The notes under the pieces are model-generated. The model was given only the letters and a program-made list of their open reading frames with translations. It was not told the origin of the DNA and made no database searches. This document shows, one piece after another, positions 5,741-52,336 of a DNA stretch of 64,000 nucleotides. Source of the DNA: Flavobacterium sp. MDT1-60. GTDB taxonomy: Bacteria > Bacteroidota > Bacteroidia > Flavobacteriales > Flavobacteriaceae. Where the stretch lies: the NCBI RefSeq assembly GCF_014844035.1, contig NZ_CP062159.1, positions 1,798,001 through 1,862,000 on the forward strand, given 5' to 3'. Position 1 is the first letter of the stretch, and the number at the start of each line of letters is the position of its first letter. A program made the translations under genes and the position numbers.

Positions 5741-5743
5741 ACT

Positions 5744-5949: not shown

Positions 5950-5981
5950 ATAAATCCTTATTTTTGTCCTGAACCTACGCT

Positions 5982-34111: not shown

Positions 34112-35647
34112 ATGAAAATATTAGACTGTACATTACGAGATGGAGGGTATTATACAAATTGGGATTTTGATAAAAATTTAGTTGATACTTATTTAACAGC
34201 AATGAATGATTTACCTGTAGAGTATTTAGAGGTAGGTTATAGAAGCCCAAAATTAAATGGGTATTATGGCGAGTATTTTTACTGCCCTGATTTTGTTTTA
34301 AAAAAGTTATCTCTTTTATCAAATAAGAAATTAGTAATCATATTAGATGAAAAAAATATAAAACTAGAGACCGTAGAAGAGCTATTAAAGCCATGTTTAG
34401 GTGTAATAACGATGGTTAGAATTGCCATTGATCCTGAACAATTGTTGAGGGCAATTGATTTGGCTAAAAAAGTTAAATCAATGGGATTCGAAGTTGGATT
34501 CAATGTTATGTACATGTCAAAATGGAAAAGTCTACCTGAATTTTTATCTAATTTAAAACATGTAGATGGAGTAGCAGATTATTTTTATATGGTAGATTCA
34601 TATGGAGGTGTTTATCCTGAGGATGTAAAAGAAATTTTTTCTCTGGTTCGTTCTCAAATGAAAACTAAGATTGGTTTTCATGGTCATAATAATTTAGAAC
34701 TTGCCCTTGTAAATACTTTGACTGCAATTGAATGTGGTGCAGATATGGTTGATGCAACTATTACAGGAATGGGAAGAGGTGCCGGAAATTTAAAAACAGA
34801 ACTTTTGTTGACAGCCTTAAATCAGAGAAATAATATAGAAGTTGATTTCAATGCTTTGTCTGCAGTTACAGATGCTTTTTTTCAATTACAAAAAGAATAT
34901 GAATGGGGTACAAATTTACCTTATATGGTATCAGGAGCAAATTCACTTCCTCAAAAGGATGTTATGGAATGGGTTTCTAAAAGATATTATTCCATAAATA
35001 GTATTGTAAGAGCACTGCATCAGCAAAAAAATAAAGAAGTAAACAAGTTTCCTTTTTTTAACACTAATAAACATAAACAATACAAGTATGCATTGATAAT
35101 AGGAGGAGGGCCTACAGCTGTTCAGAAATCAGATGCAATAATTGAGTTTATTAATAAATTTGGTAATGATATTGTGGTTATACATGCAAGTTCAAAAAAC
35201 TCTATAGCATATAAAAATGTTAATTGTCAAAATTTTTATTGTTTAGTAGGTAATGAAGGAAATAGATTAACTTCGGTTTTTAAAAAGATTGAGGAATTTA
35301 AAGGTATTTGCGTTTTACCTCCATCACCCAGAAAAATGGGAACGTTTGTACCTGAAAAATTGATTAGTGAGACGACAGAATTATCTGAGGTAAATTTTAC
35401 AAATTTATTAAATGATTCGCATACTGCAATTGCTTTACAAATTGCAATTAACCTAAATGTGAAGGAGTGTTTTATAGTTGGATATGATGGTTACTCAAAT
35501 GCAAACGTTGGGAATAAGGAGCAAGAACTTTTCTTAGAGAATGAAGCTTTATTTGCTCATTCACAAGAAAACGGAATTGATTTAATATCATTAACACCAA
35601 CAAGATATAAAAACCTAACAATAGATTCAATCTATTCAAAAATTTAG
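34112..35647 (+). CDS. DRE-TIM aldolase (HMGL-like/DmpG-like) fused to a C-terminal nucleotide-sugar-type domain
   Basis: A 511-residue two-domain protein. Residues 1-300 are an HMG-CoA-lyase-like aldolase: LDCTLRDGG (4-12), HGHNN metal site (His190, His192) and GMGRGAGN (219-226), as in 4-hydroxy-2-oxovalerate aldolase. Such enzymes join or split pyruvate and an aldehyde. The C-terminal domain (from about 325) begins KYALIIGGGPTA and contains CFIVGYDGYSNANVG, resembling the DUF115/GT42-like pattern of the protein at 39784-40653. It opens the polysaccharide operon and is followed after 5 bp by a KdsB-like gene, so I infer synthesis of a 3-deoxy-ulosonic acid. Confidence 0.78.
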   Translation: MKILDCTLRDGGYYTNWDFDKNLVDTYLTAMNDLPVEYLEVGYRSPKLNGYYGEYFYCPDFVLKKLSLLSNKKLVIILDEKNIKLETVEELLKPCLGVITMVRIAIDPEQLLRAIDLAKKVKSMGFEVGFNVMYMSKWKSLPEFLSNLKHVDGVADYFYMVDSYGGVYPEDVKEIFSLVRSQMKTKIGFHGHNNLELALVNTLTAIECGADMVDATITGMGRGAGNLKTELLLTALNQRNNIEVDFNALSAVTDAFFQLQKEYEWGTNLPYMVSGANSLPQKDVMEWVSKRYYSINSIVRALHQQKNKEVNKFPFFNTNKHKQYKYALIIGGGPTAVQKSDAIIEFINKFGNDIVVIHASSKNSIAYKNVNCQNFYCLVGNEGNRLTSVFKKIEEFKGICVLPPSPRKMGTFVPEKLISETTELSEVNFTNLLNDSHTAIALQIAINLNVKECFIVGYDGYSNANVGNKEQELFLENEALFAHSQENGIDLISLTPTRYKNLTIDSIYSKI

Positions 35648-35652
35648 TTCTC

Positions 35653-36378
35653 ATGAAAACTGTACTTATCATACCAGCGAGATATAAATCGTCTAGATTT
35701 CCAGGTAAACCACTTATTGTTTTAAATGGTAAAACGATGATTCAAAGAGTTTGGGAACAATGTAGTAAAGCTTTTGATCCTAATTTAATTTTTATAGCTA
35801 CTGAAAATGAAAAAATCCTAGAACATTGTCTTGAAAATGGAATGCAATGTATTATGACATCTGATAATTGTTTAACTGGTACAGATCGTGTTGCTGAAGC
35901 TGCCAAGAAAATAAATGCAGATTATTATATTAATGTTCAAGGTGATGAGCCAGTAATAAATCCAAATGATATAACTAAAATTGTAGAATTATTATCTAAA
36001 TCAAATGGTGAAATTTTAAATGGCTTTTGCGAAATTGATAATGCAGATGATTATTTGAGCGTCTCAGTTCCAAAAGTAGTTATGAGGCAGGACAATAGAT
36101 TACTTTATATGTCAAGAGCACCAATACCGGGTAATAAAAATAATATTTTCCAGAAAGGCTTTCGACAAGTATGCATTTATGCATTTCCAAAAGAGGCATT
36201 GGATGTATTTAGTAAGACAACAGAAAAAACACCAATGGAATTGGAAGAAGATATTGAAATTTTACGTTTTTTAGAAATGGGTTATGAAGTGAAAATGGTA
36301 AAAATGTCTAAAGAATCTATTCCAATAGACAATCCTGAAGATGTTGATAAAGTTCTTAAAAGATTAAATAATGTTTAA
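35653..36378 (+). CDS. KdsB-like CMP-ulosonate cytidylyltransferase
   Basis: A 241-residue protein matching 3-deoxy-manno-octulosonate cytidylyltransferase: IPARYKSSRFPGKPL (residues 6-20), TGTDRVAEAAKK, the metal-binding NVQGDEPVIN, MSRAPIPGN and the end SIPIDNPEDVDKVLKR. KdsB activates Kdo as CMP-Kdo for lipid A core. The position inside this operon, next to an aldolase and a HAD phosphatase, suggests a paralogue for a different ulosonic acid or for a variable surface glycan. The housekeeping kdsB would be elsewhere. It overlaps the HAD gene by 8 bp. Confidence 0.85.
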   Translation: MKTVLIIPARYKSSRFPGKPLIVLNGKTMIQRVWEQCSKAFDPNLIFIATENEKILEHCLENGMQCIMTSDNCLTGTDRVAEAAKKINADYYINVQGDEPVINPNDITKIVELLSKSNGEILNGFCEIDNADDYLSVSVPKVVMRQDNRLLYMSRAPIPGNKNNIFQKGFRQVCIYAFPKEALDVFSKTTEKTPMELEEDIEILRFLEMGYEVKMVKMSKESIPIDNPEDVDKVLKRLNNV

Positions 36379-36994
36379 TAATTATAAAATTATTCTTTGG
36401 GATTTTGATGGAGTAATAATGGATTCCATGCCTGTACGCGATAAAGGTTTTGAAATTGTTTTGAAAAATTATCCGAAGGATCAAGTATCACTTTTAATGG
36501 AATATCATAGAAGTAATGGCGGACTCTCCAGATATAATAAATTTAGATATTTTTTTGAAGAGATAAGGAAAGAATCAGTTAACGATTCGGACATCAAATT
36601 ATTGGCGGAAGAATTTTCAGTCGTAATGCTTGAAAATCTTTTAGATTCCAGTTTATTGATTCAAGATTCATTAAACTTTATTAAAGAGAATTATTTAAAA
36701 TATAATATGCATATTGTGTCCGGTTCAGATGGAGTTGAATTGAGATATATTTGTGAAACCTTAGGTTTATCTAAATACTTTATTTCTATTAACGGTTCTC
36801 CAACTCCTAAGAATCAACTAGTAATGAATTTGTTAATTGAGAATAAATATAAAAATGAGCAAACATGCTTAATAGGCGATTCATTTAATGATTTAGAAGC
36901 AGCCACAGTTAATGATATTGTTTTTTATGGATATAATAATGAGTTGTTGCTAGCTAAGTCTAAAAGATACATTCAGACTTTTTCAAATATTTAA
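36371..36994 (+). CDS. HAD-superfamily phosphatase
   Basis: A 207-residue HAD hydrolase with a C1-type cap. Motif I is DFDGVIMDS (Asp11 and Asp13), motif II is VSGSD, and motifs III/IV end with GDSFNDLEAA. It resembles phosphoglycolate-phosphatase-type enzymes rather than the short KdsC family. By position it may remove phosphate from a sugar acid between aldolase and cytidylyltransferase steps, the role KdsC or NeuC-pathway phosphatases play. That assignment is inferred from the 8-bp overlap with the cytidylyltransferase gene. Confidence 0.82.
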   Translation: MFNNYKIILWDFDGVIMDSMPVRDKGFEIVLKNYPKDQVSLLMEYHRSNGGLSRYNKFRYFFEEIRKESVNDSDIKLLAEEFSVVMLENLLDSSLLIQDSLNFIKENYLKYNMHIVSGSDGVELRYICETLGLSKYFISINGSPTPKNQLVMNLLIENKYKNEQTCLIGDSFNDLEAATVNDIVFYGYNNELLLAKSKRYIQTFSNI

Positions 36995-37036: not shown

Positions 37037-38292
37037 ATGAAAAAGAAATACTTTCCAATTTTATCTATTCTATTTGTTTTTGTTTTTACATTTTGTAGTT
37101 CTGATAAAGATGCTTTTACAGAGAAGACACCAATTGATCTTGACTTGACTAGTAAACCAACCAATTATTTTGGACAGGATTTTACATTGCTGCCCCAAGA
37201 TAATGTCTCGAATTCCGACCTAAATATTGAAGGAGGGATTCTTCAAGATCAAAACTCTAATCCAAAGTATAATCAAACCAAAAGAACCTGGCAGGGTATA
37301 CCATCTATTGGTAAGGATCGATGGGGAACTTTATATGCTACATGGATAAGTGGAGGAAAATGGGAAGGCAATGATAATTATATAACAGTTTCTTTAAGTA
37401 AGGACAAAGGTAAAACTTGGAAACATGATAAATTAGTTATTTATGTTAATCCGGAAGATTCAACAAGAGTGATGGACCCTAGTTTGTTTAATGATAAATT
37501 TGGTAATTTATATATAGCTTGGGCAAAGCACATAGAAAGAAAAAAGGTTGTAAATAAACAATGGGCTGATGCTTGGTATTCTAAGTTAAAATTGTCAGAA
37601 ACAGGCACTATAGAATATAGTTCCCCAAGAAAAATGGCTTCTGGTATCATGATAAACAAACCTTTTACTTCTACAATTACTGATCAGATGATTTTCCCTA
37701 TAGCTGTTTGGTATGCAGGTAATCCTATTTTGCAGCAGCCTTTTATGTATAAAGGCGATTATGGTACAGATAATTTGGTCAATTTTAATAAAGTTGGGGG
37801 AATTACAATGAATGTGACAAAACAACATATGATATATGAACATATGTTTGTAGAATTAAAAGACTCAACCTATTTAGGAATGACGAGAGCAATTGATGGT
37901 ATATATTATTCAAAAGCAAAGATGGAAAAACTTGGGATGTAGGAAAAAAATTCACTGATCTTGGTGAAACCAATTCTTCACGATTCCATTTGGCAAAATT
38001 AAAATCTGGTCGCTTGATTCTTATTTTTAATAATGCTTCCACTAGAACTAATATGACAATTTTCCTTTCAAATGATGATGGGGCCACTTGGCCATATAAA
38101 ATGGTTATTGATACAGATAATGATGTTTCTTACCCAGATATGATCGAAAGTGATCCAGGGATATTAAATATCGTATACGATTATGCAAGAGCAACTGCAG
38201 GAACCATTAACTTTGTAACAATAAAAGAAAGTGATATTATTGTGAATAGTAAAACTGAAGTTTTTAGAACAAAAATAAGTTCACTTCAATAA
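37037..38292 (+). pseudogene. sialidase-like (BNR/Asp-box) lipoprotein gene broken by a one-base deletion
   Basis: Frame one (37037-37942) encodes a lipoprotein (Cys20 after FTF) with an Asp-box SKDKGKTW and the BNR-type phrase TWQGIPSIGKDRWGTLYATW. It stops after YYSKAKMEKLGM. The other frame continues YYSKSKDGKTWDVGKKF from the same spot to 38292, with further Asp-boxes SKDGKTW and SNDDGATW. Restoring one A in the run at 37912-37915 joins them into one protein of about 418 residues. The Arg of the usual sialidase RIP motif is not evident (QGIP). A true mutation, sequencing error or phase-variable A-run are all possible. Confidence 0.8.
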
Positions 38293-38343: not shown

Positions 38344-39777
38344 ATGAGTAAATATAAACAGTTAGGTAAGAATACAGCTCTGGTTTTTATTGGTAATATT
38401 GGAAGTAAGATGATTGCTTTTTTAATGCTACCCTTTTATACAAAATGGTTAAGTGTTGAAGATTACGGTACCTCGGATAATGCTTTAATTTACGTTAGTC
38501 TTTTAATTGGAATTGTAACACTTAGTATTTCAGAATCAATTTTTATTTTTCCTAAAGACCAGGACTTTAAAGTACAAAAAAGATTTTTTACTTCAGGATT
38601 AGTTTATTCGGGATTATTGCTTATCATAACAGGATTTGTATTATATGGGGTAAGAGGGCTTTTACTTAAAGGAAATCTTCTTAAAAGCATCACGGATAAT
38701 ATGGGTTATATTTATTTACTGGTAGTATCCTTATTTTTTCAGACCTTTTTACAGCAGTTTTCTCGCAGTATAAACAGTATCAAAGTCTATGCAATTTCAG
38801 GAGTTGTATTGACACTACTAACGACAATTCTATCTCTTATACTTATTCCTGAATATAAGCTTGATGGGTTTTTTATAGCACAAATACTTTCTTTTTTGAT
38901 TTCAGCGGCTTATACTTTAGTTCACTCAAAATCTTATCAGTATTTTTCTCTGAAAGAATTAAACTTTGAAAAATATGGAGAAATGGCAAAATATTCCATT
39001 CCATTGATTCCAAATGCAATTATGTGGTGGTTAGTAGGTTCTTTAAATAGGCCTCTAATGGAAGAATATTTAGGGATGCATGCAATTGGTCTATTTGCAG
39101 TTTCTAATAAATTCCCTTCTCTGATAAATGTTCTTTTTTCGGTTTTCATGGTTTCCTGGCAAATTTCAGTAATTGAAGAGTATAAAAAAGAAAATTATAA
39201 AGAATTTTATAATCACATTTTTAAGTTGGTTTTTGCCTTTTTACTTTTGTGTGTTATGATGATAAGTGTATTAAGTAAGACATTGACTGGTTTAGTTGCC
39301 GATGCCAAATTTATCGAATCGTGGAAATACATACCTATACTTTCATTATCTGTGTTATTTTCATCAATTTCAGGCTTTGTTGGGTGTAATTTCTCTGCCA
39401 CAAGGGAAAGTAGATATTATTTTTATTCTAGTGTTTGGGGAGCAGTAATAGCTGTTGTATTTAATTTAATATTAATTCCAATTTGGGGTTTATATGGAGC
39501 AGTTACTGCAATTGTATTTTCTCATTTAATTATGGCGCTTTCAAGAATTATATATTCATGGAAAATTGTAAAAATTGAAAAGATTCATCTTTATTTATTG
39601 ATGCTGGTAATTTGTCTTGCAGTCGTTTTGGTTTCAAGCTTTATTCAAAATAATTTTATAATAATTATTACGATGTTTACCGGTTTTATTTTACTTGGTT
39701 TATTGATGAAAAAGGATGTAGTTCTAGGATTACAGATGATTAAATTAAAATTAAAAAATAATAATGAGTTTAAATAG
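38344..39777 (+). CDS. Wzx-type polysaccharide flippase
   Basis: A 477-residue protein with about 12-14 membrane helices, N-terminal GKNTALVFIGNIGSKMIAFLMLPFYTKWLSVEDYG typical of the Polysacc_synt (MOP) flippases. It would turn the undecaprenyl-linked repeat unit from the cytoplasmic to the periplasmic side. It follows the sialidase pseudogene by 51 bp and precedes the DUF115-like gene by 6 bp. The specificity for the repeat unit is not readable. Confidence 0.88.
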   Translation: MSKYKQLGKNTALVFIGNIGSKMIAFLMLPFYTKWLSVEDYGTSDNALIYVSLLIGIVTLSISESIFIFPKDQDFKVQKRFFTSGLVYSGLLLIITGFVLYGVRGLLLKGNLLKSITDNMGYIYLLVVSLFFQTFLQQFSRSINSIKVYAISGVVLTLLTTILSLILIPEYKLDGFFIAQILSFLISAAYTLVHSKSYQYFSLKELNFEKYGEMAKYSIPLIPNAIMWWLVGSLNRPLMEEYLGMHAIGLFAVSNKFPSLINVLFSVFMVSWQISVIEEYKKENYKEFYNHIFKLVFAFLLLCVMMISVLSKTLTGLVADAKFIESWKYIPILSLSVLFSSISGFVGCNFSATRESRYYFYSSVWGAVIAVVFNLILIPIWGLYGAVTAIVFSHLIMALSRIIYSWKIVKIEKIHLYLLMLVICLAVVLVSSFIQNNFIIIITMFTGFILLGLLMKKDVVLGLQMIKLKLKNNNEFK

Positions 39778-39783
39778 AATAAT

Positions 39784-40653
39784 ATGTCAATAAAAAAACA
39801 ACTAAAACCAATTTTCTTTTTTATTGTTAACATTTTTATAGACAATAAATCGATATTAGATGTTAGAAAAAATCGCAATTACTTAGATCATATTTGGTAT
39901 ACAATTCGGTTTAGGCTTGCAGGATTAGGTTTTGTTTTTACTGAAAATGAAAAAAAAATACAATCTTTTAAAGACAAACACAAAGGTGAAAGGTGCTTTA
40001 TTATAGGCAATGGCCCTTCTTTAAATAAACTTGATTTGATATTGGTTAAAAATGAAATAACATTTGGTGTTAATGGGATTTATTTAAATAAAGAAAAAAT
40101 GGGATTTCTCCCTACTTATTATGTTATAGAAGATTATTTAATTGCAGAAGATCGCCGTTCTGAAATAAATGCTTTGAAAGTTGAGGCAAAATTTGTTCCA
40201 ACTTATTTGGATTATTGTCTTACGAAAGATGACAACACAGTAAATTTTAATGGATATTTAAATTACTCAGATAAAATTTTTAACCCTAATTTTTCGAACA
40301 ATTGTTTAAGAAGAATAGGAGTAGGTGGTAGTGTAACCTTTATGTGTTTGCAATTGGCTTATTATATGGGTTTTGAAGAAGTTTATATGATCGGTTTTGA
40401 TCATAATTATGCTAAAGTGGATAAGCATGAAGCTGGAATCATAGTCACTAAAGAGAATGATGAAAATCACTTTGTGCCAAACTATTACACAAAAGGGGAA
40501 AGATGGCATGATCCAAATGTAGAAAGAATGGAAAAAGGTTTTTCAGTAGCTAATGAGTTTTTTCTAAAAAATAACAGACAAGTATTTAATGCAACTTATG
40601 GAGGGCATTTGGAGGTTTTTAAGCGAAAAGACTTTAATGAAATTTTTAAATAA
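39784..40653 (+). CDS. DUF115/GT42-like Rossmann protein, possible ulosonate or sialyl-type transferase
   Basis: A 289-residue protein with an N-terminal basic, partly hydrophobic segment. The core begins CFIIGNGPSLNKLDLI (residues 71-86) and has GVGGSVTFMCLQLAYYMG (179-196) and EVYMIGFDHNY (199-209). This pattern is seen in DUF115 (MptE-like) proteins and, from memory, in GT42 sialyltransferases such as Campylobacter CstII (GNGPSL, then GxY-GID). It is therefore a candidate for transferring the CMP-activated acid made by the operon's first genes. The C-terminal domain of the fused aldolase has a related pattern. Function is inferred. Confidence 0.68.
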   Translation: MSIKKQLKPIFFFIVNIFIDNKSILDVRKNRNYLDHIWYTIRFRLAGLGFVFTENEKKIQSFKDKHKGERCFIIGNGPSLNKLDLILVKNEITFGVNGIYLNKEKMGFLPTYYVIEDYLIAEDRRSEINALKVEAKFVPTYLDYCLTKDDNTVNFNGYLNYSDKIFNPNFSNNCLRRIGVGGSVTFMCLQLAYYMGFEEVYMIGFDHNYAKVDKHEAGIIVTKENDENHFVPNYYTKGERWHDPNVERMEKGFSVANEFFLKNNRQVFNATYGGHLEVFKRKDFNEIFK

Positions 40654-40658
40654 ATAAG

Positions 40659-41810
40659 GTGGACGATATTAATACTTATATATTTTACACATTTTTTTTA
40701 CTATTGTGTTTATTCTTATCACAAAAAATAGTTCTAAAAAAGAATTTTGTAAACAAATCTTTAGAAATTGATTTTGCGAGACCAAGTTTATATGTTTTAA
40801 TGCTCATATATTCGCTGATTATTGGATTAAGATATAATGTTGGAAGAGATTATTATGGTTATACAGAATGGTTTAAAGAACTTAGACATACTGGTCGTTT
40901 CCCTGTTGATAATGATTTTGGTTTTATCTGGCTTAACGAATTTCTGGTACATTTTGATTTTGAAAGTTATGCATTGTTTATTGTTTTAGCATTTTTACAA
41001 ATTCTATTTCTTCTCTTGTTTCTTAAAAGAATTCCTTTTCTTCGAGCATGGTATTTTTATTTCTTTTTTACTAGTTTGCTTTTTTTTATTAGTATGAACG
41101 CTATGAGACAAACTCTTGCATTTTTAATATTTGCATATTGTCTTCAGCTTTTCTATGACAAAAAGTATTATCACACTCTTTTTATAGCAATTTTAGCATT
41201 TTCTATTCATAAAACTGTTATAGTTCCTTTTATTTTGCTTCCTTTTTTGAGGGTCGAATGGTTTAAGAGTGTTAAAAGTCAGCTTGTTTTACTTTTTTTA
41301 TCTGTTTTTGTTCTGCCTGCTTTTTTTACAATTCTTCTCGATTTTGCAACTCCATTTATAAATCTTCTCGGCTATAATTATTATATAGAAAATTTAGACT
41401 ATATGAAAGAAATTACGGATGAAAACAAGAGAGGTGAAGGTTTGGCTATTTTTTTATTCTTTTTTGTTGACCTGTTTATTATCTTATTTTATGAGAAATT
41501 AAAAACAGCTTTTCAAGAACTTTACTTTGTAAAGTTCTACAATCTATATTTTATTGGATTAATGTTATCTAGAATTTTTGCAGAAAATTTTATTTTATCT
41601 CGAATTGCTGATTATTTTATTAGTTTCAGAATTATAATTTTATCATTTTTAATGTTTTACATTTTTAATAGTTCAAAAATCCAAAAAAATAAAATTATTA
41701 AAGCAATTGCTATATTAACATGTTTTGTAATGCTGTTATTTTATTATAAGGCTATTTATAATAATGCAGGTGATATAGCACCATTTCAATTTATTTTCAA
41801 TCATGATTAA
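40659..41810 (+). CDS. EpsG/Wzy-type polysaccharide polymerase
   Basis: A 383-residue membrane protein with about ten hydrophobic segments and the EpsG-like phrase NVGRDYYGYTEWFKEL after the second helix. Start is a GTG 5 bp after the preceding stop. Such proteins join lipid-linked repeats in the periplasm. The SIHKTVIVPFILLPFL segment with its His is typical of EpsG. It overlaps the next glycosyltransferase by 8 bp. Confidence 0.8.
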   Translation: MDDINTYIFYTFFLLLCLFLSQKIVLKKNFVNKSLEIDFARPSLYVLMLIYSLIIGLRYNVGRDYYGYTEWFKELRHTGRFPVDNDFGFIWLNEFLVHFDFESYALFIVLAFLQILFLLLFLKRIPFLRAWYFYFFFTSLLFFISMNAMRQTLAFLIFAYCLQLFYDKKYYHTLFIAILAFSIHKTVIVPFILLPFLRVEWFKSVKSQLVLLFLSVFVLPAFFTILLDFATPFINLLGYNYYIENLDYMKEITDENKRGEGLAIFLFFFVDLFIILFYEKLKTAFQELYFVKFYNLYFIGLMLSRIFAENFILSRIADYFISFRIIILSFLMFYIFNSSKIQKNKIIKAIAILTCFVMLLFYYKAIYNNAGDIAPFQFIFNHD

Positions 41811-42672
41811 ATATAGCATTATTATTTGTTCTTATAATAGATTTCAATTATTGGAAGAGACAGTTATTTCGATAATAAATGTTCTCAAAGATAAAGATTA
41901 CTTTGAGTTACTCATAATAGATAATAATTCTACAGACTGTACTCCAACTCTTAAGCAAAAATATGGTCATAATAAAAAAATTAAATATTTTCTAGAGTTA
42001 CAACAGGGATTGTCACATGCAAGAAATAGAGGACTAAAGGAGGCAAAAGGTGAAATTTTAGTATATTTAGATGACGATATTGAATTAGTTGAAGATTATT
42101 TTGAAGTTTGTGATCAAATATTTTCTGATGAATCTATTTTAATATCAGGTGGTAAAGTAATACCATATAAGGTAGATATACCAAAGTGGCTTCCTGAAAA
42201 GTATTATTTTTTGGTAAGTGTTTATGACTTAGGTGATCATCCTAAGTTTGTTAAATATCTTATGGGGGGTAATTTTGCGATAAGAAGTGAAATAGCCTTG
42301 GAAATTGGTCTTTATAATGTTGAGTTAGGGCGAAATGGGAAGATACTTGCAGGAGGAGAAGAAATTGATTACCAAAATAGAGCAACTGCGATGGGATATA
42401 AAATGTACTATCATCCAAATCAAAACATACTGCATAAAATAAATGAAAAATTGAACGAAAATTATGTTCTAAATTATTCGAAAGAACTTGGTAAATCAGA
42501 AAGAATTATAGATGAAGCAGGTTCTGGATGTAGGGTCTTATTAAAGATATTAAAGTGTTATTCTGCAGAGATGTTATTTAATTTGTTTATTAGATTAATA
42601 AGGGAGGAAAAGAAAAAAAACTATTTAAAGATTATTAAAAAATATTCTGAGGGATATCTAATTAAATTATAA
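41803..42672 (+). CDS. family 2 glycosyltransferase
   Basis: A 289-residue GT-A enzyme: IIICSYNRFQLLEETVISI, the IDNNSTD motif, GLSHARNRGLKEAKGEILVYLDDDIEL with the metal-binding DDD, and GGEEIDYQNRA as the acceptor-side motif. It adds one sugar from a nucleotide donor to the growing lipid-linked unit on the cytoplasmic side. Donor and linkage are unknown. It overlaps the polymerase gene by 8 bp. Confidence 0.87.
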   Translation: MIKYSIIICSYNRFQLLEETVISIINVLKDKDYFELLIIDNNSTDCTPTLKQKYGHNKKIKYFLELQQGLSHARNRGLKEAKGEILVYLDDDIELVEDYFEVCDQIFSDESILISGGKVIPYKVDIPKWLPEKYYFLVSVYDLGDHPKFVKYLMGGNFAIRSEIALEIGLYNVELGRNGKILAGGEEIDYQNRATAMGYKMYYHPNQNILHKINEKLNENYVLNYSKELGKSERIIDEAGSGCRVLLKILKCYSAEMLFNLFIRLIREEKKKNYLKIIKKYSEGYLIKL

Positions 42673-42682
42673 TACTCTAACA

Positions 42683-43747
42683 ATGAATAAATGTTTAAGT
42701 GATAAAATTAAAATTGTTTCTTTTTTTTCTATGATTTTGGTTGTATATCTTCATTCTTATAATTTACTAATAAATATAGGTGAAAATTCTAGGACTATTA
42801 ATAAGGGGTATAATTCCTTTATTCAAGAATTTGTTTCTAAGGGAGTAACAAATATTGCCGTTCCCTTTTTTTTTGTCATATCTGGATATTTATTTTTTTT
42901 AAATGTAGATGGATATTGGAATGAATTTTTATTAAAGTATAAAAAAAGAATTTCGACACTTTTGGTTCCATATTTATTATGGTCGATGTTTGGCATTTTG
43001 TTTTACTTTACTTTACAATCAGTTCCTATTTCAAAACCTTTTTTTACAAAACAACTTATTTCTAATTATTCTATCATAGAATTATTAAATGTGCTTTTTT
43101 TAAAACCTATTCCATATCAATTATGGTTTATAAGAGATTTAATTATTTTAATTCTTTTTTCTCCACTCATATATCGGTTGGTAAAATTATCAAACTATTT
43201 TATTCTTCTATTACTTTCAATTTTATGGTTAGCTCGTATTGATTATTTTCTTTTCTCTAATGAAGCTTTTTTCTTTTTTATAATTGGAGCTTTTATAAGT
43301 ATTAAATCAACAAAACTTGAAGAAAAAATTAATAAATCATTTTTTTTTTACTTTCTTATATGGCTATCGTTAGTTTTGTTCAAAACAATTCTAAATAATA
43401 CCGCTTTAAGATCTGACTATTTTCTATACTTTTTAAATAAAATAAGTATTCTTTTTGGAATTATAGCAGTTTGGTCGGGTTATGATGTTTATTTTAAGAA
43501 AAGAGAAATGTCAGAAGTTAAAATTGCCCCCATATTTCAATATTCTTTTTTTATATATGTAGCACATGAGCCTATGCTTACTATCTACAAGAAAGTTTTA
43601 TATGTAATCCTTGGTCAGAATGAAATGGTATCATTTGTAATTTATGTAGTAGCACCTATTTTAACTATAAGTAGTTCTTTAATTATAGGTTTTTTTTTAA
43701 AAAAACATCTGTCAAAGTTGTATTCTTTACTAACAGGAAATCGCTAA
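42683..43747 (+). CDS. acyltransferase-3 family membrane protein
   Basis: A 354-residue protein with about ten membrane helices. The first helix contains FFSMILVVYLHSYN with the family His, and IAVPFFFVISGYLFF matches the second helix of AT3 proteins. These O-acylate surface sugars (usually acetyl) at the inner membrane. A reading as a modification of the repeat unit fits its place among the glycosyltransferases. It is one of two likely acyltransferases here. Confidence 0.85.
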   Translation: MNKCLSDKIKIVSFFSMILVVYLHSYNLLINIGENSRTINKGYNSFIQEFVSKGVTNIAVPFFFVISGYLFFLNVDGYWNEFLLKYKKRISTLLVPYLLWSMFGILFYFTLQSVPISKPFFTKQLISNYSIIELLNVLFLKPIPYQLWFIRDLIILILFSPLIYRLVKLSNYFILLLLSILWLARIDYFLFSNEAFFFFIIGAFISIKSTKLEEKINKSFFFYFLIWLSLVLFKTILNNTALRSDYFLYFLNKISILFGIIAVWSGYDVYFKKREMSEVKIAPIFQYSFFIYVAHEPMLTIYKKVLYVILGQNEMVSFVIYVVAPILTISSSLIIGFFLKKHLSKLYSLLTGNR

Positions 43748-43848
43748 TTATTTTATGAGACTAGATACATTTTTTTAAAGCAAATGTATATTGAAGTTGA
43801 AGTGTCGCTCTTTACTGGTATTAAAAAATATTAATAGTATAAAAATAT

Positions 43849-44961
43849 ATGAATGTGAAAATAGGAATTGATGCAAAATGGTATTTTGAGGGGCCAGCAA
43901 GTGGGAAAATGGTTATTCGTAATTTAGTAAATGAAATTTGTAAAGCAAATAGTAAATTAAATTTCTACATAATATTGGATAAGAAATGTGAAAATTTGCA
44001 ATTAGATTCTGAAAATACGAAAGTAAAAAAAGTGTATGTTTGGAATGGAAATAATTTATTATCAAATGTGTTTTTTGTTCCGTTTGTTGCAAAAAAATAT
44101 GACTTAGATATTGTGCTTTACCAAACATCAGTATCTCTTTTCGGTAAGCATAAAAAGATTGCTTACATTCATGATTTAATTTATATATCGCACCCTCAAT
44201 ATTATACTTTTTTAGAAAGAATTTATTTAAAACCATTAAAGTTTTTAACTAAATTTTCTGATTTTGTCATCACTGTTTCTAATTCTGAAAAAAATAGATT
44301 TCAGAATTTGGCGTTTACCAATAAAGATATTAAGGTATTGCATCATGGTTATGATTCTCTTTTTAAGGTAATTGATGGGCGTGATGATGAGGATAACTCT
44401 GAAATAAAGTCCAGATTACAATTAAATGAAAAGTATATACTGTATGTCGGAAGGATAAATACACGTAAAAATATTCCTAATTTGCTTAAGGCATTTCAAA
44501 GTTTAGAAGATAAACAAATTAAATTAATTCTTGTTGGTAAACGTGAATGGAAAACGGATGATTTAAATTCATTATTAGATGATCCTTCAATTTCTGATAG
44601 GGTAATATTAACAGGATCTGTTTCAAATGAAGAATTATCAATAATATACTCTAATGCTTATATTTTTTGTTTTCCATCATTTGAAGAAGCATTTGGGCTT
44701 CCTCCACTTGAAGCTATGGCGTCAGGAATTCCTGTCGTAGTATCTAATTCTTCATCCCTGCCTGAAGTTTGTGGTGATGCGGCTATTTACGTAAATGCTA
44801 GTGAGCCAAATGAAATTGCAGAAGCGATTACAAGATTATTGTCTGATACAGACCTTTATAATAAATATAAGCAATTATCAGTTGAACGTGCGAAGGCATT
44901 TTCGTGGACAAATACAACTCAAAATTTGATTGATATTTTAGAAAAAAGATATGTTAAGTGA
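43849..44961 (+). CDS. family 4 (GT-B) glycosyltransferase
   Basis: A 370-residue GT-B protein: [15 protein letters not shown] at the N-terminus, [41 protein letters not shown] and the donor-site [19 protein letters not shown] (the two Glu of the E-x7-E motif). It resembles mannosyl- or glucosyltransferases, but the donor cannot be fixed. The stop overlaps the next gene's GTG start. Confidence 0.88.
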
Positions 44962-45659
44962 AAATGATAAATAGTATAATTAAGAAGTTAAAAAAATCAG
45001 ATAATTATTCTGTAGATGAAAATCTTACAATTATGGACTTATCACTGATTTTAAAACAGAGAATATTTCAGGTTTTTCGTGGTTTATTTGTTAAACCTTT
45101 TTTTAAAAAAAGCGATGGGCTTATTTTTAAAGGTAAAAATGTTAAAATGCAACACTTAAATAAGGTCTCTTGTGGCAAAAATCTAATCATTGAAGATAAC
45201 GTGTATATTAATGCACTATCAAAGTCAGGAATTGAGTTGGGATCAAATGTGACAATACAAAGAGATTCTATTCTAATTTGTACAGGAGTTATTAGAAATA
45301 TGGGAATAGGTATTAAAATTGGAAGCAATGTTGGTTTGAATGCACGAGTTTATCTTGGTGGTCAAGGAGGAATTGAAATTGGAGAGGATGTGATAATTGG
45401 ACCAGATGTAAAGATATTTAGTGAAAATCATAATTTCAAAAAAACAGATAGTATAATTAAAGACCAAGGAGAAACAAGAATAGGTGTAAAAATTGGAAAT
45501 GATTGCTGGATTGGATCGGGTTCAATTATTCTTGATGGAGTAAATCTTGGCCATGGTTCTGTTGTTGCAGCAGGTTCTGTAGTGACAAAATCATTTGAAG
45601 CATTTTCGGTAATCGGTGGTGTTCCGGCAAAGCTCATTAAATTTAGAGAAAGTTCATGA
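44958..45659 (+). CDS. left-handed beta-helix (hexapeptide) O-acyltransferase
   Basis: A 233-residue protein with hexapeptide repeats ([34 protein letters not shown]) and the catalytic-type SENHNF His. The end [12 protein letters not shown] is typical of the WbbJ/LbH acetyltransferases that O-acetylate surface sugars. The start could be the GTG at 44958 or ATG at 44964. It overlaps both neighbours by 4 bp, so it is translationally coupled. With the AT3 protein it suggests an acylated glycan. Confidence 0.85.
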
Positions 45660-46762
45660 AAATAGCAATAATAGGAACAAGGGGAATTCCGAATCATTAT
45701 GGTGGTTTTGAACAATGTGCCGAGTATCTCGCTTTCGGATTAGTAAAAAGAGGATTTGAAGTTATTGTTTATAATTCACATAACCATCCTTATCAGGAAA
45801 AGGTGTGGAATGGCGTGCAAATAGTACATTGTTATGATCCGGAACATAAATTAGGAACTGCAGGTCAGTTTATTTATGATTTGAATTGTATTTTAGATGT
45901 TAGGAAACGTAATTGCGATATTGTATTGCAATTAGGATATACCAGTAGTTCTATCTGGGGTTGGTTAATGCCTAAAAAAGCTGTAGTAACTACGAATATG
46001 GATGGCTTGGAATGGAAAAGAACGAAGTATTCTGAAAAAGTAAAAAAGTTTTTGAGATATGCGGAATCATTAGGGGTAAAATACAGTGATCATTTAATTT
46101 CAGATTCTATCGGCATTCAAAATTATTTACAGGAAACTTATAAAGCAGACTCTACGTACATCGCTTACGGTGCAACTCTTTTTGAAAAGAATAATGCAGA
46201 GGTTCTTGTTAATTATAATTTAGAAGCATATAATTTCGACATGTTGATTGCCAGATTAGAACCTGAAAACAGTATAGAAATTATTTTGGATGGCGTTGCC
46301 AAAGCAAATCTTTCTCGTCCTTTTTTGGTAGTTGGTAATCACGAAACGGCATATGGTAATTATTTGAAAAATAAATTTTCTGTCTCTTCCCAAATTCAGT
46401 TTATAGGCGGAATTTATAATATTGAAGTATTAAATAATTTACGCTATTATTCTAATATCTATTTTCACGGTCATACCGTTGGAGGAACTAATCCTTCTTT
46501 GTTAGAAGCAATGGCATCAAACAGTTTAATCTGTGCAAATGGTAATGACTTCAATCAATACATTTTAGGTAATGATGCGATTTATTTTAAAGACGCAAAT
46601 GATGTCGTAAATCATTTGTTACATGCAAAATGTACTGATGATAGTTTCCAATCAATGTTAATTGAAAACAAAAGAAAAATAGAAAACATATACGATTGGG
46701 AAATTATTGTAGAGCAATATTCGAAGCATTTTAAAGATATCTTTAAAATGAATATCAATTAA
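45656..46762 (+). CDS. DUF1972-type glycosyltransferase (rhamnosyltransferase-like)
   Basis: A 368-residue GT-B protein. The N-terminal block [24 protein letters not shown] is the DUF1972 hallmark, and the C-terminal GT4 domain carries [15 protein letters not shown] and [18 protein letters not shown]. Related proteins act as rhamnosyl- or galactosyltransferases in polysaccharide loci. The ATG overlaps the preceding stop by 4 bp. Confidence 0.87.
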
Positions 46763-46763
46763 T

Positions 46764-48182
46764 ATGAAAATTTTAAAAGAATTATCTCGATTTCATTTCT
46801 CCCGTTATTTTAAACTGCTGTTTGTAATATGGGATATTATATTGCTTAATATCTCTATTATCTTTTCAGCTTTTTTAAGATTTGGGGCTTTGGATAAGCT
46901 ATTTTTAAAAGAAGTGCAAACTATTTCTTTACTTGGTAATTTAGTCTGGATTGCTTTGCTTCTTTATAGAGATTCCTATAGGATTATAAGGATAGAGCCA
47001 ATTGAATCTATAGTAGCCAGAACTATAAAAAAAGTACTTATTCATGCAGCAATAACAGCTATTTTTGTTGTGTTCTTAAAATATTCGGACATTTCTCGAC
47101 TTCGATTAGTTTATTTTTATTTTTGTTTTTTTGGGTTATTGATGATTTCTCGTTATTTATCGATGAAACTTCTGAAATACATAAGGACTAAAGGATATAA
47201 TTTTAGAAATTTTATTATTGTTGGAGCAAATGACGCGGGAGAACGCATACGAAAAACGTTAGCAAAAGATTTAACATATGGTTATCGATTTTTAGGCTTT
47301 TTTGATGAGAAGTTAGATCCATTTGCTTTTATTTCTTCTCCCCTACTCGGTGGATTCGATGATATAGAACAATTTATTATAAATGAAGAGGTAGATGAGA
47401 TGTATGTGGCACTGCATATTGACAATATTGAGGTAATTAATAAAATAATTCAGATCTGTGAACATCATATGGTAAGGGTTAAGTTTATTCCAGATTTTCA
47501 ATTGTATACAAAATCAAACAAGGTGGAACTTTCATTTTACGAAAATACACCGGTATTAATGTTCCGTCCGGAACCTCTTGAGTTTACGGTAAATCGATTA
47601 TTAAAAAAGGCTTTTGATGTTGTTTTTTCTTCTCTGGTTATTGTATTGATTTTTCCATGGTTATTTCCAATAATTATGTTACTAATAAAATTGGAATCTC
47701 CAGGCCCGATTCTTTTTAAACAGGAGCGTTCCGGAAGAGATAATCGTTCCTTTACCTGTTGGAAATTTAGAAGTATGCGTCTTAACGGTGCCGCCGATAA
47801 AAAACAGGCAAAAAAGGGAGATAGCCGTGTGACAAAATTTGGAGCTTTTATGCGTAAAACAAGTATCGATGAGTTGCCACAGTTTTTTAATGTTTTTTTT
47901 GGTGATATGTCCGTTGTGGGGCCGCGACCTCATATGGTAAATCATACCAAACAATATAGTGAACTTATCAATAATTATTTAGTACGTCAGTATGCTAAAC
48001 CAGGTATTACGGGATGGGCTCAGGTAAATGGTTATCGCGGAGAAACGAAAGAATTAATTGATATGGAAAACAGAGTGGAATATGATATCTGGTATATCGA
48101 AAATTGGAGTTTGCTCCTGGATATAAAAATAATAATAAAAACAGTTATCAATGTTGTTGGCGGAGAAGAAAATGCATATTGA
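46764..48182 (+). CDS. initiating undecaprenyl-phosphate sugar phosphotransferase (WbaP/WcaJ type)
   Basis: A 472-residue protein with about four N-terminal helices, a CoA-binding-like Rossmann part (NFIIVGANDAGERIR), one more helix (near 285-315) and the catalytic domain KQERSGRDNRSFTCWKFRSMR, DELPQFFNVFFGDMSVVGPRPH and KPGITGWAQVNGYRGET. It places the first sugar-1-phosphate on undecaprenyl phosphate to start the repeat unit. It begins 1 bp after the DUF1972 gene. The sugar, glucose or galactose in most homologues, is not determined. Confidence 0.92.
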   Translation: MKILKELSRFHFSRYFKLLFVIWDIILLNISIIFSAFLRFGALDKLFLKEVQTISLLGNLVWIALLLYRDSYRIIRIEPIESIVARTIKKVLIHAAITAIFVVFLKYSDISRLRLVYFYFCFFGLLMISRYLSMKLLKYIRTKGYNFRNFIIVGANDAGERIRKTLAKDLTYGYRFLGFFDEKLDPFAFISSPLLGGFDDIEQFIINEEVDEMYVALHIDNIEVINKIIQICEHHMVRVKFIPDFQLYTKSNKVELSFYENTPVLMFRPEPLEFTVNRLLKKAFDVVFSSLVIVLIFPWLFPIIMLLIKLESPGPILFKQERSGRDNRSFTCWKFRSMRLNGAADKKQAKKGDSRVTKFGAFMRKTSIDELPQFFNVFFGDMSVVGPRPHMVNHTKQYSELINNYLVRQYAKPGITGWAQVNGYRGETKELIDMENRVEYDIWYIENWSLLLDIKIIIKTVINVVGGEENAY

Positions 48183-48321: not shown

Positions 48322-49110
48322 ATGAAATCTAAAACTTCCTTTATAAAAATAAGTTCAATTGTATTGCTTTTATTTTTATTCTTTTCTTGTGGATCAAAAC
48401 AAGATGTGGTGTATTATCAAAATATTGATAGCATGACTGCACAGCAAAATAGTAATTCATACGAAATTAAAATTCAACCAGATGATTTGCTGATGATTAT
48501 AGTTTCAGCTGATGATCCTGAAGTAGCACTTCCCTTTAATTTAAGAACCTATAGCACTTCAACAAATAACAGACTAGATGTTGCCCAAGGTCAGCAAACG
48601 GTTCAATTGTATTTAGTAGATCAGAGCGGAAATATAGAGTTTCCCATTCTGGGAAAATTAAAGATTGGAGGTTTGACACGAACTGAAGCACTTCAGTTGC
48701 TTCAAACAAAAATAAGTGTTTATATAAAAAATCCAATTGTCAATCTTCGTATTATGAATTTTAAAATTTCGTTGCAAGGTGAAGTAAATTTACCAGGAAC
48801 CTATCCTATTGCTTCAGAAAGAGTTACTTTGGTTGAAGCATTAAGTATGGCAAAGGATTTAACTATATATGGTAAACGTGATAACATTTTAGTGATTAGA
48901 GAGATTAATGGGGTTAAATCCTATAATCGAGTGGATATTACCAAATCAGATTTCATTAATTCACCCTTTTATTATCTTGCTCAAAATGATGTAGTATATG
49001 TTGAGCCTAATAAAACAAGAATAAATTCGTCTGCAGTTGGTCCAAATACTTCTGTAATTATATCAGCGATCTCTATTTTGGTATCGCTTTCTGTCCTAAT
49101 CTTTAAATAA
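48322..49110 (+). CDS. Wza-like outer-membrane polysaccharide export lipoprotein
   Basis: A 262-residue lipoprotein with Cys23 after a hydrophobic signal (LFFSCGSK). The mature part has the polysaccharide export domain (IQPDDLLMIIVSADDPE, then IEFPILGKLKIGGLTRTEALQLL) and an SLBB domain (KISLQGEVNLPGTYPI). The C-terminal hydrophobic segment (ISAISILVSLSVLIF) could span the membrane. It forms the export channel together with the Wzc-like kinase encoded 15 bp downstream. Confidence 0.93.
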   Translation: MKSKTSFIKISSIVLLLFLFFSCGSKQDVVYYQNIDSMTAQQNSNSYEIKIQPDDLLMIIVSADDPEVALPFNLRTYSTSTNNRLDVAQGQQTVQLYLVDQSGNIEFPILGKLKIGGLTRTEALQLLQTKISVYIKNPIVNLRIMNFKISLQGEVNLPGTYPIASERVTLVEALSMAKDLTIYGKRDNILVIREINGVKSYNRVDITKSDFINSPFYYLAQNDVVYVEPNKTRINSSAVGPNTSVIISAISILVSLSVLIFK

Positions 49111-49125
49111 AATTGAAATAAGAAA

Positions 49126-51522
49126 ATGCAAAAGCAAAATTTTTATAATGATGTTATAGATGATGAAATCGAAGACGTTAACCTTAGAGAGCAATTAGAG
49201 AAGTATTTAGTGCAATGGCGCTGGTTTTTAGTAAGCGTAACTATAGGTTTAATTCTCGCATTTCTATATTTACGCTATACAACTCCAAGTTACGAAGCCA
49301 CAACTACGATCTTAGTAAAAGATGAGAAAAAAGGAGGAATGTTGTCTGAGTTATCTGCTTTTGCCGATTTAGGCATGGGCGGAAGCATGAAAAGTAATGT
49401 TGATAATGAAATTGAAATTTTAAAATCGAGAACATTAGTTGAAAGTACAATTAAGGAATTGGATCTTAATATTGGTTTATTTGTTGAAGGAAAGGTTGTC
49501 GATAGAGATGTTTATGCGGAAACTCCAATTCATGTTTATTTTTACAATAAAAATAATTTATTTGATGAAGCTAAGTTTGTTTTAAATTGTGAACTTTTGA
49601 ATTCGAATTCTTTCCGTTTAGAAGAAGAAAATCAAGGAAATGCAAAAGATGATTTTATTTTAGCATCTAAAAATGAATTTAAATATGGTGAAAAAGTAGC
49701 GACTAGAGTTGGAACTCTCGTAATTACCAAAACTTCATTTTATGGAAAAAATCATACAGGACGTTTCAAATCGGTTAGGATTGTAATAAACCCATTAGAT
49801 GTTGTAACAGAGGGATTTAGAAAAGGATTAAAAGTTGAACCAGTAAGCAAAACTAGTAGTGTCGTTAATATTTCAATCTCTGATCCTGTATCTAAAAAAG
49901 CAGAGAATTTTTTAGATACTATGATTGAAATTTATAATGAAAATGCAGCTGAAGATAAAAATTATATTTCAGAAAACACTTCTAAATTTATTGCAAGCCG
50001 ATTAGCTTTAATTGCTCAGGAATTGGATGGTGTAGAACAGGATGTAGAAAGTTTCAAGAAAGCAAATAAATTAACGGATATCGAATCTGAGGCAAAACTT
50101 TTTATTGAAGGTTCTAGTGAGTATGATAAAAAAGGAGTAGAAACTGAAATTCAAATGAGTGTTGTTTCTTCGATGTTGGATTTTATGAAAAAGAGTACTA
50201 ACTCCGATTTGTTACCATCTAACCTAATTACTAGTGATAATGGCGATGCATCAGGATTAATTAGTTCATACAATCAGTTAGTTTTAGATCGAAATAGAAT
50301 TTTGAAATCGGCTACAGTGGAGAATCCTTCAGTAGTGAAACTAGATCAACAGATTTCATCTTTAAAATCTAATGTTGCTGCCAGTTTAAGACGTATGCAG
50401 GCTAATTTGCAAATTCAAAATCGTGACATAAAAAGCCAGGAAGGAATTTTAAATAGCAAAATTGGTAAGATTCCGGTTCAGGAACGTCAATTTAGAGTAA
50501 TCGCTAGACAGCAAAAAGTAAAGGAAGAACTATATTTGTATTTGCTTCAAAAACGTGAAGAAACTGCTATTTCATTAGCAGCAACAGAACCAAATGCACG
50601 TGTGATAGATGCTGCTAAAGCTGAAAAAGCGCCAATTAGTCCCAAAAAAAAAATAATTTATTTGGCAGGAATGTTACTTGGTTTACTAGTTCCTTTCGGA
50701 ATCATTTATGCGGATGATTTATTAGATACAAAAATCAAGAGTAAGCTAGATTTAGAAGGTAAAACACAAATCCCATTTATTGGAGATGTGCCAACTTCTG
50801 ATGATATTGCTGAGTTAATAAAATCGGAAAGCAGAACTAGTTCTGCCGAGGCTATACGTATTGTGAGAACCAATCTGGAGTTTATGTTAAATAAAGTCCC
50901 TGAAGGACTTGCAAAGACAGTATTTGTTACTTCTACTTTTCCATCAGAAGGTAAAACATTTATATCTGTTAATCTTGCGGCTACTTTTGCTTTATCAGGA
51001 AGACGTGTATTATTAATTGGTGCGGATATTAGAAACCCAAAATTTGGTGAATATATTGATGTTCCTAGTTTAGGGTTAACGAATTATTTATCTTCAAATG
51101 ATAAAAATGTTCAGGATTATATCATTAAACATAAAGGATATGAGAATTTCTTTATTTTGCCATCAGGTGTAATTCCACCAAATCCGGCTGAGTTATTAAT
51201 GAGTAAAAGGGTGGATCAGCTTTTTGAAGAACTTAAAAAAGAGTATGACTACATTATTGTAGATACAGCTCCTGTAAGTTTGGTTACTGATACCTTATTA
51301 ATAGCCAAAAATGCAGATACCTTTGTTTATGTAATGCGTGCAAATGTATTAGAAAAGCGTATGCTCTCAATTGCAAATACTTTTTATAAAGAAAAGAAAT
51401 TACCAAATATGTGTATCGTTCTTAATGATACCGATTCGACAAAAGGTTATGGCTATGGTTATGGTTATGGTGTGAGAGAAGAGAAAAAAGCGTGGTACAA
51501 AAAGTTATTTCTTAGAAAATAA
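49126..51522 (+). CDS. Wzc-like polysaccharide co-polymerase and tyrosine kinase
   Basis: A 798-residue protein: N-terminal Wzz domain with a first membrane helix (about 33-52), a long coiled-coil region to about residue 490 and a second helix (about 505-525). The BY-kinase domain follows, with the Walker A-type FPSEGKT (Lys610), the A' motif ILLIGADIRNPK and the Walker B IIVDTAPV. The C-terminus has a GYGYGYGYG repeat followed by EEKKAWYKKLF, providing the Tyr cluster that is autophosphorylated. It controls chain length and export with the Wza-like lipoprotein. The convergent PHP phosphatase at 51593-52336 is the likely counterpart. Confidence 0.94.
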   Translation: MQKQNFYNDVIDDEIEDVNLREQLEKYLVQWRWFLVSVTIGLILAFLYLRYTTPSYEATTTILVKDEKKGGMLSELSAFADLGMGGSMKSNVDNEIEILKSRTLVESTIKELDLNIGLFVEGKVVDRDVYAETPIHVYFYNKNNLFDEAKFVLNCELLNSNSFRLEEENQGNAKDDFILASKNEFKYGEKVATRVGTLVITKTSFYGKNHTGRFKSVRIVINPLDVVTEGFRKGLKVEPVSKTSSVVNISISDPVSKKAENFLDTMIEIYNENAAEDKNYISENTSKFIASRLALIAQELDGVEQDVESFKKANKLTDIESEAKLFIEGSSEYDKKGVETEIQMSVVSSMLDFMKKSTNSDLLPSNLITSDNGDASGLISSYNQLVLDRNRILKSATVENPSVVKLDQQISSLKSNVAASLRRMQANLQIQNRDIKSQEGILNSKIGKIPVQERQFRVIARQQKVKEELYLYLLQKREETAISLAATEPNARVIDAAKAEKAPISPKKKIIYLAGMLLGLLVPFGIIYADDLLDTKIKSKLDLEGKTQIPFIGDVPTSDDIAELIKSESRTSSAEAIRIVRTNLEFMLNKVPEGLAKTVFVTSTFPSEGKTFISVNLAATFALSGRRVLLIGADIRNPKFGEYIDVPSLGLTNYLSSNDKNVQDYIIKHKGYENFFILPSGVIPPNPAELLMSKRVDQLFEELKKEYDYIIVDTAPVSLVTDTLLIAKNADTFVYVMRANVLEKRMLSIANTFYKEKKLPNMCIVLNDTDSTKGYGYGYGYGVREEKKAWYKKLFLRK

Positions 51523-51529
51523 AGTAAAA

Positions 51530-51573
51530 GCACAAAAAAAAGGGATCAATTAATTGATCCCTTTTTTTTGTGC
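51530..51573. terminator. 44-bp perfect palindrome between kinase and phosphatase genes
   Basis: 51530-51573 reads the same on both strands: GCAC, eight A, GGGATCAATT, then the complement. It gives a hairpin followed by T runs in both directions, so it is a two-way terminator between the convergent Wzc-like and PHP-type genes. Confidence 0.85.
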
Positions 51574-51592
51574 TTTATAGTTTTAAAAAAAA

Positions 51593-52336
51593 TTAGAATT
51601 TGAAAAATTGATTATTTGCAATAATTTCGTTTAAGGCAGTAACGTTATTATTATCAATTTTTATTTTTTGATTAAATGATGCGATGTGGTTGTTATGATG
51701 CACATCAGTACCAACAAAATCATACATTCCTTTTTTTAGAAGCTCTTCAGCTACTTTAGTAATTTCGCTTCCGTAATAGCCAACGACTGCCAATAAGTTT
51801 AATTGAAACATACATCCGGCTTTTTTTAGTTTATTATATTCATTAAAGTTTTTATGATAAAATAAATATCTTTCCGGATGTGCTAATACTGGAATATATC
51901 CTGCAACCTGCAAATCGAAAAGGATTTTATACAATTGAACAGGAGCATTCATATACGACATTTCAACCAAGACGTAATTATCTTTTAAGGTCAATAGTTT
52001 TTCATTTTGAAAATGGGTTTCAAACCAATCATCCATGAAATATTCTGCGGCAGCCTGAAATGGAATTTTAATATTTTCTTCTTCTAATAAAAGTTTTGTT
52101 TCTTCATGTTTGGCAATAATACCTTCTGGGGAGTTATTCCAAATGTAGTGGCTAATATGGGGCGTTGTGATAAATTGAGATACACCAATTTCCTGAAAAG
52201 AATTGGCAAGCTTAATAGTATCTGCTATTGTTTTGGCACCATCATCAATACCTGGTAATAAATGTGAATGAATATCAACATAATTTCCAGTAAGAAGATC
52301 TTTTAAGTACGGTTTTGATTTTAAGAATGATAACAT
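51593..52336 (-). CDS. CpsB/CapB-type tyrosine-protein phosphatase (PHP family)
   Basis: A 247-residue PHP-domain protein with the metal-binding DIHSHLLPGIDDGAKTI near the N-terminus, TTPHISHYIW, a Glu-containing AAAEYFMDD, AHPERYLF and FVGTDVHHNN motifs. It removes phosphate from the tyrosine cluster of BY-kinases such as the Wzc-like protein encoded on the other side of the palindrome. This makes a kinase/phosphatase pair that cycles polysaccharide export. A TATTTTTG-type box lies only 6 bp before the ATG (52342-52349), so the message may be nearly leaderless. Confidence 0.9.
   Translation of the reverse strand: MLSFLKSKPYLKDLLTGNYVDIHSHLLPGIDDGAKTIADTIKLANSFQEIGVSQFITTPHISHYIWNNSPEGIIAKHEETKLLLEEENIKIPFQAAAEYFMDDWFETHFQNEKLLTLKDNYVLVEMSYMNAPVQLYKILFDLQVAGYIPVLAHPERYLFYHKNFNEYNKLKKAGCMFQLNLLAVVGYYGSEITKVAEELLKKGMYDFVGTDVHHNNHIASFNQKIKIDNNNVTALNEIIANNQFFKF

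Follow-up and report, generated by a model that had tools for sequence, protein, structure and literature searches.

A probable aldolase-led cassette for an activated ulosonic acid in a Flavobacterium surface-polysaccharide locus

Host and phage recognition is governed by sialic-acid-like sugars, and NeuB or KdsA genes are the usual grounds for predicting that a genome has them. A surface-polysaccharide locus of Flavobacterium sp. MDT1-60 raises the question of whether an aldolase of another family can lead to such a sugar. The window, as we call the whole stretch analysed, is 64,000 nucleotides long (contig NZ_CP062159.1, positions 1,798,001 to 1,862,000), and the locus within it opens with three genes, hereafter the trio, coding for a two-domain DRE-TIM aldolase, a cytidylyltransferase and a HAD phosphatase-like protein; flippase-, polymerase-, glycosyltransferase- and Wza/Wzc-like genes, named by eye, lie further on (Table 1). 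Aldolases of this type are not known for making or activating a sialic-acid-like sugar, which this cassette probably does. We put the probability at about two in three (0.68) that it makes a cytidine monophosphate (CMP)-activated 3-deoxy-2-ulosonic acid for a surface glycan, each chemical step and the identity of the sugar being what we infer. An earlier note on this DNA had proposed such a pathway and was mostly right in direction; the idea is strengthened by the conserved gene pairing, the fusions, the shared changed pocket and the GT29 neighbours described below, although the aldolase does not replace KdsA or NeuB as that note had it.

The routes to 3-deoxy-D-manno-octulosonic acid (Kdo; KdsA-KdsC-KdsB) and to sialic acid (NeuB-NeuA) proceed by condensation, dephosphorylation and CMP activation, and the trio would follow the same plan with a DRE-TIM aldolase in place of KdsA or NeuB. 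The N-terminal, metal-dependent DRE-TIM domain would add the pyruvate enolate to a sugar aldehyde, most likely a phosphorylated one; the HAD protein would then take off the phosphate, the cytidylyltransferase would activate the free acid with cytidine triphosphate, and a GT29-, polysialyltransferase- or Maf/CstII-type transferase would pass the activated sugar on. The aldolase C-domain may sense or channel the CMP-sugar or may itself be a transferase, and together with the cytidylyltransferase it would function as a single exchangeable unit. A literature search, with subscription journals mostly outside its coverage, returned no description of a DRE-TIM aldolase route to a CMP-ulosonate, and a search joining 4-hydroxy-2-oxovalerate aldolase, cytidylyltransferase and glycosyltransferase found nothing.

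The open reading frames form the single run that had been described, with a gap of 5 bases between the aldolase and cytidylyltransferase genes and an overlap of 8 bases between the cytidylyltransferase and HAD genes, and the motifs CTLRDGG, HGHN and GRGAGN are all present in the aldolase translation. Pfam recognises the three expected domains, PF00682 (HMGL-like, 8.3e-25) in the aldolase, PF02348 (4.7e-42) in the cytidylyltransferase and PF13419 in the HAD protein (52.4 bits against a cut-off of 23.8, 9e-14); what had been overlooked is a second aldolase domain at about residues 302-511. A scan of species genomes gave 117 confirmed aldolase relatives, and 80 of the 117 loci were analysed (48-72% identical; Bacteroidota and Balneolota by our own assignment). 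They come from related species and include near-duplicates, so that the counts are not independent events, and 16 of 79 contigs end early on one side. A cytidylyltransferase homologue adjoins the aldolase or lies within 2.5 kb of it in all 80 loci (by BLAST, with L078 added separately; PF02348 was checked by Pfam on one protein per subfamily and on L002), and 48 of 80 aldolases, that of the window among them, begin a contiguous same-strand trio. Of 79 loci, 64 have a HAD homologue no more than 8.5 kb from the aldolase, and the window has one as well.

The pairing was also seen in an even draw of 296 genomes of the phylum, which overlaps the 80 loci (G202 is the genome of L052 by coordinates). 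Eight of these genomes encode a full-length aldolase that is at least 50% identical, in nine copies including that of the window, and each of the eight copies outside the window is followed on its own strand, at most 1.9 kb downstream, by a PF02348 place. Since the association recurs in 80/80 loci and 8/8 even-draw copies, the pairing of aldolase and cytidylyltransferase is not chance. The trio thus co-occurs elsewhere, and the lack of co-occurrence that the earlier note had named as counting against its idea did not arise. Other matches to the KdsB-like enzyme at E of 1e-45 or below were found in five of the 296 genomes; two (59% and 62%; G005 and G123) adjoin an aldolase, and three (39-41%) are in genomes where no aldolase was found.

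Fusion joins the two activities in contigs of viral assignment, where aldolase and cytidylyltransferase form one polypeptide in 33 of 42 relatives (18 groups at 90% identity); both domains were confirmed by Pfam in the two fused proteins scanned, L121 and L141. Of the nine unfused relatives, five have the cytidylyltransferase as a neighbouring gene of its own, and in four none was found. An MptE-like gene is present in 20 of the 33 fused loci, and in 23 there is a gene of about 133 amino acids with HAD-like motifs, recognised by eye. GT29 genes over the cut-off occur in viral-contig loci L120 and L130, with L130-type homologues in L128 and L129; in L128, L129 and L130 the sialyltransferase-like GT29 gene (Pfam: L130 copy) sits two genes upstream of the fused gene. 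In L120, a gene at 5581-6555, two genes upstream of the aldolase relative, apparently fuses an SIS-like (sugar isomerase) domain ahead of a HAD-like domain, with Pfam scores under the cut-off. A PHROGs search with 10 neighbour proteins gave no viral hallmark gene, only glycosyltransferases and a dehydrogenase, and we therefore speak of viral contigs and not of proven phages.

Six-frame searches of the organism's own genome identified one KdsA over the cut-off and two NeuB, 0.35-2.3 Mb from the window, which itself has no match to PF03102 (NeuB) or TIGR01362 (KdsA). The observation that no such gene lies in the locus therefore stands, and the proposal that the aldolase replaces these enzymes does not: because the genome keeps KdsA and two NeuB, the cassette is an extra system. 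Four PF02348 genes are present, namely a housekeeping-like KdsB, that of the window, and two about 1.5 and 2.4 kb from NeuB genes; the three outside the window can be matched up with KdsA and the two NeuB, the KdsA pairing being by similarity and not by neighbourhood. The two NeuB loci are separate (C1:1434280 and C1:1480708), each with its nearby PF02348 gene.

Genes near the trio would suit the use of a CMP-activated sugar. Of 79 trio loci, 15 have GT29-cluster genes (16 in all) no more than 8.5 kb from the aldolase; such a gene comes directly after the HAD gene in 12 of 65, and all 14 genes tested pass the Pfam cut-off for GT29. Other trio loci carry polysialyltransferase-like genes or weak MptE/CST-like ones. 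Across the 296 phylum genomes no GT29 exceeded the cut-off, with two weak matches, while the positive control recovered 14 of 14 genomes with known GT29. Fifteen of the 79 loci also have NeuB within 8.5 kb (four of these proteins were checked by Pfam); six of them are GT29 loci, and some GT29 enzymes may therefore serve a NeuB sugar rather than the trio product, whereas nine of the 15 GT29 loci have no NeuB within that distance. The aldolase could instead make or cut a small 2-oxo acid or precursor, such as a non-sugar decoration or even the aldehyde, with another enzyme building the ulosonic acid that goes on to CMP activation. Besides NeuB, an HpaI/GarL-like second aldolase, under the NCBIfam equivalog cut-off, fits this alternative; of the 79 loci 11 carry it, and in 10 its gene stands between those for aldolase and cytidylyltransferase. 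We nevertheless hold it improbable, as neither gene is within 8.5 kb in 57 of the 79 loci (with the truncated contigs noted above) nor in the window, and 33 viral-contig loci encode aldolase and cytidylyltransferase as a single polypeptide. The inserted HpaI/GarL-like genes (L016, L020, L022, L025, L027, L036, L041 in pieces, L055 partial, L057 and L061) account for every one of the nine loci in two of the rarer cytidylyltransferase subfamilies, and for L057. A KDG-kinase-like PfkB gene, also under the equivalog cut-off, occurs in five trio loci without HAD (L056, L066, L073, L076 and L077); both kinds of side gene resemble enzymes of 2-keto-3-deoxy acids, which may be a hint.

The window cytidylyltransferase belongs to the KdsB side of its family but scores 138.8 bits against TIGR00466, the KdsB equivalog, under its cut-off of 155.2. 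It exceeds the broader subfamily cut-offs PRK13368 (290.6 against 255) and PRK05450.1-5, and its best PDB match is 1gq9, which we take to be KpsU. We compared 30 trio KdsB-like enzymes with 30 KdsB taken as housekeeping (the best 30 of 49 phylum places), using window numbering. R10 (29/30 housekeeping, 30/30 trio), D98, E202 and R205 are kept in both sets. Invariant F153 of the housekeeping set is replaced by M, I or L, H172 (30/30) by Q (26/30) or A (4/30), G174 (30/30) by C (26/30) or H (4/30), and Q203 (25/30) by I (24/30) or others. The fused viral-contig domains have Q172, C174, K192, D200 and I203 in all 32 readable rows of 33. In 3DUV the residues aligned with H172 and Q203 are His185 and Gln215, which a modelling paper (PMC12058783) tabulates as belonging to the KdsB active site; the window has Q172 and I203 there. 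Because this His and Gln are lost, yet kept along with the Gly in 1gq9, Kdo is probably not a substrate of the trio KdsB-like enzyme.

The same residues bear on the view that the enzyme is a second, KpsU-like CMP-Kdo synthetase for a Kdo glycan, with the aldolase an unrelated passenger. A capsule-specific KpsU is described in PMC3149649, and both the PRK13368 score and the match to 1gq9 would suit it; the lost pocket residues, the TIGR00466 score, the fusions and the constant adjacency make it quite unlikely, and we disfavour it.

The nearest structural neighbour of the aldolase N-domain is 3dxi, followed by the DmpG family. The former is the N-terminal domain of BVU_2661 from Bacteroides/Phocaeicola vulgatus, a structure with no function given and the C-domain outside the crystal; among papers listed for 3DXI or BVU_2661, none is by its listing evidently about this protein. 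DmpG-type aldolases (1nvm, 4lrs, 8ih7 and 4jn6) share the TIM barrel and the conserved Arg, Asp and two His, and a GMGxGAGN-type motif is also found in 1nvm and 8ih7. R9, D10, H190 and H192, invariant in 39 aldolase rows and aligned with 1nvm, are presumably the enolate Arg and the metal ligands. Unlike the trio aldolase, the DmpG types have another C-terminal domain and, at only 19-22% identity, His-21, presumably catalytic, at the position of Tyr13, which is invariant in the 39 rows and is Tyr in 40 of 42 viral-contig rows. The score against TIGR03217 (4-hydroxy-2-oxovalerate aldolase) is 100.2 bits, under the curated cut-off of 286, and the setting is a polysaccharide locus. DmpF over the cut-off was not found in a profile search of the own genome, which gave one weak match elsewhere than at the trio, and was found in one of seven genomes searched; DmpG/DmpF catabolism was rejected on this absence. 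On these grounds the aldolase departs from a plain DmpG type. Tyr13, and the Claisen-type synthases within the superfamily, would also suit a DRE-TIM domain that uses another donor, such as acetyl-CoA or a different 2-oxo acid, to build a different CMP-activated acid; we give this little credence, about as little as the KpsU-like view. A phosphonate pathway, in which DRE-TIM synthases, CMP activation and HAD phosphonatases also occur, is rejected as very improbable, the only PF13714 place over the cut-off in the genome being a 472-residue frame at C1:5314524, far outside the window.

Several findings weigh against a CMP-ulosonate pathway run by the trio, in addition to the nearby NeuB and HpaI/GarL-like genes. 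No HAD was found within 8.5 kb of the aldolase in 15 of the 79 loci. Around the viral-contig copies, a search over about 4 kb gave no HAD of the window type, and Pfam support for the small HAD-like gene there is weak. Tyr13 implies acid/base chemistry different from that of DmpG. The partners of the aldolase come from at least four cytidylyltransferase subfamilies (with links set at 130 bits and the window included, 41 NeuA/PseF-like, 30 KdsB-like, and others of 5 and 4), which makes one fixed product doubtful; in the largest, L001 scores 54.5 for PseF, under the cut-off of 205.7. The pocket argument covers the KdsB-like partners only, 30 of 80.

Among close relatives, the cytidylyltransferase partner varies together with the aldolase C-domain. 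This domain is predicted from structure comparison to have a Maf/CstII-like fold; it scores 14.4 bits against PF01973 (Maf_flag10/MptE-like; cut-off 34.6), its Foldseek comparison is ambiguous on its own, and a PDB profile search gave a best E of 0.28. In the Maf flagellin glycosyltransferase (5mu5) and the CstII sialyltransferase this fold binds CMP-sugars; the trio domain differs in being fused to an aldolase and under the PF01973 cut-off, with catalysis putative. The window was compared with four Flavobacterium relatives that have a NeuA-like partner (L001, L003, L004 and L052). N-domains are 93, 89, 87 and 83% identical and HAD proteins 80, 76, 70 and 78%, whereas C-domains are 38-39% and cytidylyltransferases 12-13% identical. 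In all four, blastn matches end at 35013-35016 and restart at 36378-36394, with flanks at about 79-83% and 75-82% identity and no match across the exchange unit between them; the breakpoints coincide with the aldolase domain border and a gene border, and the four comparisons may stem from one event.

Where N-domains are at least 85% identical, C-domain identity averages 82.7% for pairs with the same partner type (29 pairs) and 38.2% for different types (3 pairs, all with the window); the corresponding averages at 75-85% are 62.1 (38 pairs) and 45.0 (15 pairs), and below 75% C-domain identity is independent of partner type. Quick trees require at least 23 changes among five partner types on the N-domain tree and at least 15 on the C-domain tree, against an average of 33.7 on both in 200 shuffles; for the 65 rows with HAD the counts are 18, 12 and, on the HAD tree, 16. 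As changes are fewer on the C-domain tree and C-domain identity tracks the partner in the closer pairs, C-domain and cytidylyltransferase appear to tend to move together.

The BNR/sialidase-like lipoprotein gene directly 3' of the trio is broken across two reading frames, and the trio genes of L037, L052 and L069 have longer homologues of it nearby. For the MptE-like protein of the window, a PDB sequence search gave a chance-level match only.

Table 1. Positions of the trio, its domains and the surrounding locus within the window.
Feature	Position	Strand	Basis
Two-domain trio aldolase	34112-35647	+	511-residue open reading frame
Aldolase N-terminal domain, DRE-TIM (HMGL/DmpG-like), residues 1-301	34112..35015	+	
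Aldolase C-terminal domain, residues 302-511, putative Maf/CstII/MptE-like fold	35016..35647	+	
Cytidylyltransferase, KdsB side of PF02348, changed sugar pocket Q172/C174/D200/I203	35653..36378	+	241-residue open reading frame
HAD phosphatase-like protein (HAD_2)	36371..36994	+	207-residue open reading frame
Exchange unit (aldolase C-domain and cytidylyltransferase)	35017..36377	+	blastn against four Flavobacterium relatives
BNR/sialidase-like lipoprotein gene, in two frames (37037-37942, 37990-38292)	37037..38292	+	
MptE-like/Maf_flag10-type protein, candidate CMP-sugar transferase	39784..40653	+	PF01973 4.9e-16
Remaining locus: flippase-like, polymerase-like, glycosyltransferases, acyl/acetyltransferases, initiating transferase	38344..48182	+	Open reading frames named by eye
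Wza-, Wzc- and CpsB-phosphatase-like export genes	48322..52336	.	Open reading frames named by eye

More tentatively, and at less than even odds, the trio may represent a third enzyme lineage for 3-deoxy-2-ulosonic acids across Bacteroidota and viral contigs, in which a pyruvate-aldolase domain and a phosphatase are shared while a swappable identity module, the putative CMP-sugar-binding C-domain with its matching cytidylyltransferase, sets which ulosonic acid, possibly an undescribed one, reaches the cell surface. If a CMP-ulosonate pathway is correct, genes labelled "4-hydroxy 2-oxovalerate aldolase" by a source carry the wrong name, genomes scored as lacking sialic-acid-like sugars may have them, and viral contigs hold the pathway compacted into one gene. 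Exchange of a domain together with the neighbouring gene would show how recombination may change surface sugars.
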